This document shows, in pieces, positions 32,882 through 33,265 of a DNA stretch of 33,265 bases. The position numbers were made by a program, and so were the translations under genes. Position 1 is the first letter of the stretch. Every line of letters starts with the position of its first letter. Below the pieces are notes generated by a model, which saw only the letters and a list, made by a program, of their open reading frames with translations, did not search any database and was not told the origin of the DNA. This stretch comes from an uncultured Bacilli bacterium (GTDB taxonomy: Bacteria > Bacillota_I > Bacilli_A > RF39 > UBA660): assembly GCA_947632275.1 (NCBI GenBank), contig CANROR010000004.1:1-33265 (forward strand). Direction: 5' to 3'.

Positions 32882-32923
32882 TTTTTATTAAAACTTATGT
32901 CTAGTTTTGTCGAAACACTTGCA
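32882..32923 (+). repeat. ~42-bp direct repeat, copy 1 (upstream element containing TTTTGTCGAAA and the -35)
   Basis: TTTTTATTAAAACTTATGTCTAGTTTTGTCGAAACACTTGCA; near-identical to 33224..33265. Confidence 0.9.
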
Positions 32924-32946
32924 TTTCCTTTTTTAACCAATATAAT
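32919..32946 (+). promoter_or_regulatory. sense promoter of the small-peptide cassette
   Basis: TTGCAT-N16-TATAAT. Confidence 0.8.
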
Positions 32947-33051
32947 AGAAAATCGTTACCTTTTAGAGGAGTGCCGTTTAAAGGGGCGTTTTGGTTGTTA
33001 CTCTTTTCTTTTCTAACTTAGTTTAAACAGGTTAAAATAAGGAGGGAATTA

Positions 33052-33135
33052 ATGACTGAAATATATTTTTTAAGACTTTTAGTCTTGTTGCTAGTTTTTA
33101 GGAACTTGCAAATAAAAAATACTCCTCACAAGTAA
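33052..33135 (+). CDS. 27-aa hydrophobic peptide, candidate type I toxin (MTEIYFLRLLVLLLVFRNLQIKNTPHK)
   Basis: Strong SD AAGGAGGG with 5-nt spacing to ATG; hydrophobic core plus polar/basic tail; stop codon inside the terminator hairpin; not in the supplied ORF track because of its length. Confidence 0.65.
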   Translation: MTEIYFLRLLVLLLVFRNLQIKNTPHK

Positions 33136-33185
33136 GGAGTACTTTCTAGAAATAGTAGGTGCTCCCCTTGGTAGGTAACACTTAC
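33108..33185 (-). ncRNA. predicted antisense RNA (~75 nt) convergent with and overlapping the 3' end of the 27-aa ORF
   Basis: Minus-strand TTGCTA-N17-TATAAT promoter at 33220..33192 and a terminator hairpin with T6 at 33141..33114; ends approximate. Confidence 0.65.
33114..33147. terminator. hairpin terminator shared by the convergent transcripts (strong on -, weaker on +)
   Basis: TACTCCT-CACAAGTA-AGGAGTA; T6 on minus strand, CTTTCT on plus strand. Confidence 0.75.
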
Positions 33186-33191
33186 ATTTAT

Positions 33192-33220
33192 ATTATAAGA
33201 AAAACATCTTCCTTTAGCAA
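33192..33220 (-). promoter_or_regulatory. antisense RNA promoter
   Basis: Reverse complement reads TTGCTA-AAGGAAGATGTTTTTCT-TATAAT (17-bp spacer). Confidence 0.8.
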
Positions 33221-33223
33221 GCG

Positions 33224-33265
33224 TTTTATTAAAACTTTATGTCTAGTTTTGTCGAAATGCTTGCA
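33224..33265 (+). repeat. ~42-bp direct repeat, copy 2, truncated by the window end
   Basis: TTTTATTAAAACTTTATGTCTAGTTTTGTCGAAATGCTTGCA; differs from copy 1 by one indel and two substitutions. Confidence 0.9.

Follow-up and report, generated by a model that had tools for sequence, protein, structure and literature searches.

The window analysed here, the whole stretch of 33,265 nucleotides, is the entire contig C4 (1-33265) of a 1.14-Mb draft assembly in 97 contigs, and its right-hand end carries a compact small-peptide cassette. On the plus strand, a promoter with the -35 hexamer TTGCAT (32919-32924; TTGCA is conserved in most cassettes) and a conserved -10 TATAAT (32941-32946) is followed by a leader, an SD sequence AGGAGG (33040-33045) that folding predicts to be buried together with the start codon in a leader hairpin, and a 27-codon ORF, MTEIYFLRLLVLLLVFRNLQIKNTPHK (33052-33135). 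Translation and hydropathy predict a membrane peptide, which has no Pfam or NCBIfam match. Immediately upstream of the promoter lies a 42-bp element (copy 1, 32882-32923, plus strand) that returns at the very end of the window (copy 2, 33224-33265, plus strand), 342 bp away start to start. With up to three mismatches allowed, its core, AAAACTTATGTCTAGTTTTGTCGAAA, occurs just twice in the window and not once in 100 shuffles, and both copies run up to the TTGCA of a sense -35, as the preliminary description of this DNA had noted. The copies share 83% ungapped identity because one T is shifted between two T-runs; the remaining differences are two substitutions, ACAC or ATGC, immediately 5' of TTGCA. 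The earlier count of one indel and two substitutions was thus right for the substitutions, while the indel is strictly two compensating 1-bp shifts over 42 bp, a trivial correction. Copy 2 does begin just past the antisense -35 (TAGCAA on the plus strand, 33215-33220), 3 bp after it.

The sequence stops at copy 2 because contig C4 ends there. Over its final 77 bp the window matches one end of contig C95 (L002/L081, minus strand) without a single difference, an exact overlap that is probably the typical residue of a k-mer assembler at an unresolved branch. Beyond the overlap, C95 continues with TTGCAA, a -10 TATAAT, a leader, an SD (AAGGAGGG), a 27-codon ORF, a hairpin and an antisense promoter (TTGCTA-17-TATATT), and then whiA. 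The encoded peptide, MTEIYFLRLLVLLLAFRNLQIKNTPHK, differs from that of unit 1 by one residue. Every element anticipated for the next ~400 bp (a -10, a leader, an SD, an ORF of 25-30 codons and an antisense promoter) is therefore present, and the contrary case, an unrelated element downstream of the repeat, is excluded for C95. The tandem array proposed from the window alone is borne out by this complete second unit and by arrays of two to three units that recur in relatives, intact within contigs and with ~330-375 bp spacing: three units on G004:C49, G012:C12 and G011:C17, and two on G016:C3, G028:C29, G028:C72, G013:C9, G013:C92, G017:C15 and G005:C12. The array here is at least two units long, of which the window contains the first in full and the operator of the second. 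At 3.2 kb, C95 is a short contig, linked by a graph-style overlap as opposed to a spanning read, which could mean that the second copy is an artefact of assembly or binning and that only a single unit exists. This is extremely improbable, given that the window alone contains a complete unit plus the operator of another, that the C95 ORF is a distinct variant, and that relatives hold intact arrays inside contigs. In the congener G024, moreover, a single yvcK-like gene separates the envC-like gene from whiA and a cassette is absent, a gene order that both supports the C4-C95 link and shows the cassette-free site.

The nature of the repeat had escaped the preliminary description: it is a tandem Spo0A-box (0A-box) operator that occurs at about ten promoters genome-wide and is therefore not specific to the array. 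The pair reads TGTCTAG-TTT-TGTCGAA and ends at the -35. The distal box, TGTCTAG (32898-32904, plus strand), is degenerate, but in several relatives it is a perfect TGTCGAA; the proximal box, TGTCGAA (32908-32914, plus strand), is a perfect core in 10 bp register with it; the same pair precedes unit 2 (33240-33256, plus strand). A spacing of 10 bp between boxes accommodates two Spo0A molecules in tandem. Relatives often carry perfect pairs, TGTCGAA-N3-TGTCGAA, and a strict pattern, TGTCnnGnnnTGTCGAAnnnCTTGC, was found in 19 of 30 congeners and never in reversed-pattern controls. Because patterns that contain the boxes are circular as evidence of box conservation, a covariance model blind to them, R1, was derived solely from the cassette's 3' part (hairpin, antisense RNA and antisense -10). 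Of 48 R1 units retrieved, 45 had an upstream tandem 0A match scoring 10/14 or more, as compared to 4.8% of dinucleotide shuffles, and at 12/14 or better the counts were 36 of 48 units and 0 of 960 shuffles. The boxes of R1 units also sit at a preferred distance from the -10: 32 cases have 32 bp between box end and -10, and units of the window type have 26-27 bp. The 32-bp sub-group consists of units from G002, G005, G007, G011, G012 and G013 (L217-L245, L254); its -10 is often TAGAAT, and its box pair lies about half a helical turn further upstream than in the 26-27 bp type.

These sites predict that Spo0A binds and activates the sense promoter, which, as in members of the Spo0A regulon, has TGTCGAA at the promoter. 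The degenerate distal box in the window, where binding is a prediction from sequence, leaves some room for the true ligand to be a different response regulator that recognises similar DNA, or for the boxes to serve in repression. We regard this as improbable: the TGTCGAA core is experimentally defined, with protein contacts at G2, C4 and G5 (PMC3485338), and is present as perfect pairs in relatives, and their placement directly before the -35 is suited to activation. The regulator itself is also at hand. The genome encodes a full-length Spo0A with receiver and Spo0A_C domains, as well as SpoIVA; the Spo0A DNA-binding domain matches the solved structures 1FC3/1LQ1 (E 6e-37), and its recognition helix, SRVERAIRHAIE, is conserved, being identical to the 1FC3 chain in the alignment shown. 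A tandem 0A match of 13/14 lies 39 bp upstream of spo0A itself, consistent with autoregulation. Spo0A was detected in 25 of 30 congeners and SpoIVA in 27 of 30, and spore formers have been predicted among uncultured orders of Bacilli, RF39 being one example (PMC10868615). Five draft genomes have cassettes but no Spo0A match (G005, G017, G018, G024 and G025), which may reflect incompleteness. Tandem 0A boxes and a promoter also precede a large gene in the window's own genome (G000:C14:14083-14107; L082:3584), a 689-aa peptidase-C39-type ABC exporter, named by inspection. It adjoins sporulation-like genes (SpoIIIAH-, GerE- and GerM-like, again by inspection), and is possibly a Spo0A-controlled peptide exporter.

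The cassette peptides have 22-29 residues, with a hydrophobic stretch and usually a basic end, and their Kyte-Doolittle hydropathy over the best 15 residues ranges from 1.7 to 4.1. The cassettes thus show what is expected of a type I toxin gene, an SD followed by a small ORF that encodes a hydrophobic peptide. For ten cassette peptides no Pfam or NCBIfam family scored above cut-off, in a search whose sensitivity is limited by peptide length; matches to MgtU, DUF2116, MacP and PsaM were sub-threshold, look compositional and were set aside. From cassette to cassette the peptides change freely in sequence but keep their hydrophobicity, and the RNA architecture is kept as well.

Facing the peptide gene, a convergent antisense RNA of ~75 nt is predicted on the minus strand (33110-33185) from its promoter and terminator signals, and would cover the ORF end and the 3' segment of the mRNA. 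The antisense -10, TATAAT (33192-33197, minus strand), and -35, TTGCTA (33215-33220, minus strand), are separated by a 17-bp spacer and conserved in position: in 54 of 75 distinct units the promoter lies at a single position relative to GGTAAC with this spacer. In such AT-rich DNA the antisense hexamer scores alone show no clear excess over shuffles, so the evidence for this promoter is its fixed position and spacing. It is not accompanied by 0A boxes. Small ORFs that recur across it (MVGNTYIY...) were discounted as a side effect of the conservation of the promoter. The hairpin over the ORF end (33113-33148, minus strand) is an inverted repeat with a conserved A-run on its 5' side, equivalent to a U-run in the antisense RNA, and mostly lacks a U-run on the sense side. 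A bidirectional terminator was rejected since the U-run is found only on the antisense strand in most units, and the hairpin therefore reads as the intrinsic terminator of the antisense RNA. The promoter and terminator signals of an antisense gene overlapping the putative toxin gene accordingly recur in register across cassettes. Searches of 20 loci against Rfam yielded no match at gathering score, and the best permissive hits were at chance level.

The two ends of the predicted mRNA are complementary. The 5' end of the leader (32955-32975, plus strand) pairs with a 3' segment (33158-33179, plus strand) in a duplex of -25.5 kcal/mol, and both a swap test and covariation support this pairing. 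Cognate end duplexes have a mean of -30.6 kcal/mol, compared to -22.4 kcal/mol for non-cognate combinations, with none of 5000 permutations as low, and RNAalifold recovers the closing stem, with compensatory changes at 13 of 24 consensus pairs. Long-distance 5'-3' mRNA pairing of the aapA/IsoA or hok kind is thus a property of these cassettes. Dropping the last 35 nt of the mRNA did not raise the predicted accessibility of the SD (equilibrium folding, p = 0.9), and AapA-like activation by 3' trimming is unsupported since such folding leaves the SD unexposed. The end pairing may instead act on stability or on antisense recognition.

Most cassette leaders also contain a GGGG(G)TTTTGG motif (window 32983-32994, GGGGCGTTTTGG), which in the window is predicted to pair with the start-codon region; such pairing is not obvious in other types. 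The motif occurs as well in an ORF-less class driven by 0A boxes, in which GAAAGCGGGTTTTGGTA and CCGCTTTC are separated by ~100 nt and which lies upstream of a miaB-like gene in several genomes (L090, L095, L100, L101, L108, L112, L114, L120, L122 and L127; own C17:2016 and congeners). This class has no Rfam match at gathering score, and is probably a small RNA or a leader with paired ends. Other short 0A-driven non-coding elements (L092 on the minus strand at 203, L097, L113, L126 and L130) have the ends GTTACCC ... GGGTAAC, and are either cassette remnants or stand-alone small RNAs.

The cassette is both dispersed and repeated. In its own genome, a further full unit of the window peptide type lies on C2 and a decayed unit on C74; 0A-motif promoters precede cassettes of the same or a related peptide on C2, C11 and C95 and a second peptide type (MNKEAILFIIIIMLILVILKLI and close relatives) on C30, C66, C22 and C10, and remnants with the 0A motif remain on C74, C17 and C14. 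Five of about a dozen cassettes in this genome (G000) lie within ~500 bp of contig ends (C4, C95, C66, C22 and C27), so copy numbers in draft genomes are probably underestimates. R1 detects the cassette in 25 of 30 congeners, some of them without a strict-pattern match, and in as many as 12 copies per genome; family-wide, in an even sample searched with stricter filters, matches came from 8 of 243 genomes and 6 of 148 genera. Units from other genera have the same anatomy. Five congeners have no R1 match; as Spo0A is present in them, the cassette is dispensable. No similar DNA was found in phage, plasmid or viral collections, and a phage- or plasmid-borne module was rejected for this reason. 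We propose that duplication, both tandem and dispersed, multiplies the cassette, and that copies decay.

Such behavior raises the question of whether the cassette is simply a selfish dispersed repeat, with inverted ends (GTTACC...GGTAAC) and convergent promoters, that renders no service to the cell and whose cost Spo0A control would confine to non-growing cells. The inverted ends, the dispersed and tandem copies, remnants such as those on C74 and C17, and the absence from several congeners all fit this account. We nevertheless consider it rather unlikely, given that no transposase or target-site duplication is known so far for the cassette, that the inverted ends lie at the two predicted transcript starts, as the RNA model explains, and that the ORF and SD are kept in most copies. 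It is also compatible with a toxin-antitoxin function: the number of copies, their decay and their patchy distribution are also in keeping with an addictive or selfish element, and both readings can hold at once.

The closest parallels are with type I toxin-antitoxin systems. In B. subtilis txpA/RatA, bsrG/SR4, bsrE/SR5 and yonT/SR6, an antisense RNA pairs with the 3' part of an mRNA for a small hydrophobic peptide (PMC6562991), and the cassette is predicted to share both features. It differs in having shorter peptides (22-29 aa, as compared to 58 aa for the yonT toxin) that belong to no Pfam or NCBIfam family, in its tandem Spo0A boxes, in its covarying 5'-3' mRNA end pairing and in its dispersed multi-copy nature. 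Spo0A dependence of a B. subtilis toxin gene, yqcG, grouped with protein-antitoxin systems in the same review, is only indirect (PMC6562991). H. pylori aapA/IsoA combines a ~30-aa peptide, an 80-nt antisense RNA, a ~225-nt mRNA with 5'-3' pairing and several paralogous loci (PMC6733600), and the cassette resembles it in the predicted sizes of peptide, antisense RNA and mRNA, in long-distance end pairing and in having several paralogous loci per genome. Whereas IsoA-type RNAs mask the SD and 3' truncation activates the aapA mRNA (PMC6733600), the predicted antisense RNA of the cassette lies at the 3' end, truncation leaves predicted SD accessibility unchanged, and Spo0A boxes are present. For the C. 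difficile type I modules (CD2517.1-RCd8 and relatives), a review names Spo0A in its reference list only, while the cassette includes 0A boxes. Our literature search found no type I module driven by Spo0A boxes.

Two further groups bear comparison. Enterococcal Fst/par and enterobacterial Ldr systems also combine a small membrane toxin with an antisense RNA, which is convergent in Fst, and ldr loci are tandemly repeated; the cassette peptides have no Fst or Ldr family match in Pfam or NCBIfam, and the cassette repeats differ in being inverted, giving 5'-3' mRNA pairing. The B. subtilis cannibalism operons skf and sdp produce membrane-acting peptides switched on by Spo0A. Unlike these, the cassette has no export or immunity genes and no evident secretion leader, and it appears to be under antisense RNA control. 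The working parts of the cassette are of known kinds; their combination and the peptide family appear new.

Taken together, we consider it likely that these cassettes are a type I toxin-antitoxin-like family activated by Spo0A~P and restrained by a convergent antisense RNA and by mRNA folding. A Spo0A operator fused to a sigmaA-type promoter would produce an mRNA of ~230 nt for a hydrophobic peptide of 22-29 residues, which leader hairpins and end pairing would fold, and a separate promoter would yield an antisense RNA of ~75 nt that covers the ORF end and the 3' tail. In growing cells, constitutive antisense RNA and mRNA folding would keep the peptide silent. A rise in Spo0A~P would increase transcription, which would run across the antisense promoter, so that the peptide is made and could act on the membrane of sporulating or starving cells. 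Toxicity is a prediction here, and the same parts could instead yield a small membrane protein that aids a sporulation or stationary-phase process, for example by modulating a kinase or transporter, with the antisense RNA merely filtering basal expression. The direct Spo0A-box wiring across genera suggests use by the host, and one peptide weakly resembles the small membrane protein model MgtU (E 0.0012; sub-threshold at 18.4 bits against a cut-off of 33). Such a role is unlikely, as the patchiness (no match in 5 of 30 congeners, matches in 6 of 148 genera), high copy number, tandem duplication and decay fit an accessory or addictive module better, and the peptide sequences are free to change under a constant architecture.

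The cassettes thus appear to be a probable toxin-antitoxin family wired directly to the master regulator of sporulation. To our knowledge, a clear trigger is lacking for most type I toxin-antitoxin modules on chromosomes. In these cassettes it would be encoded in the DNA, with paired 0A boxes placing a toxin-like gene under Spo0A in up to about a dozen copies in the ~1.2-Mb genomes of related gut bacteria. More tentatively, the cassettes might be a hitherto undescribed, multi-copy type I toxin family in the Spo0A regulon that imposes arrest or death as a programmed step when cells enter sporulation, for instance in the mother cell or in cells failing to commit, while its members compete and multiply within small-genome, spore-forming gut Bacilli. 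The cassettes also provide a large natural alignment for studies of antisense and mRNA-folding control, and the purpose of chromosomal type I modules would become directly testable through deletion of spo0A.
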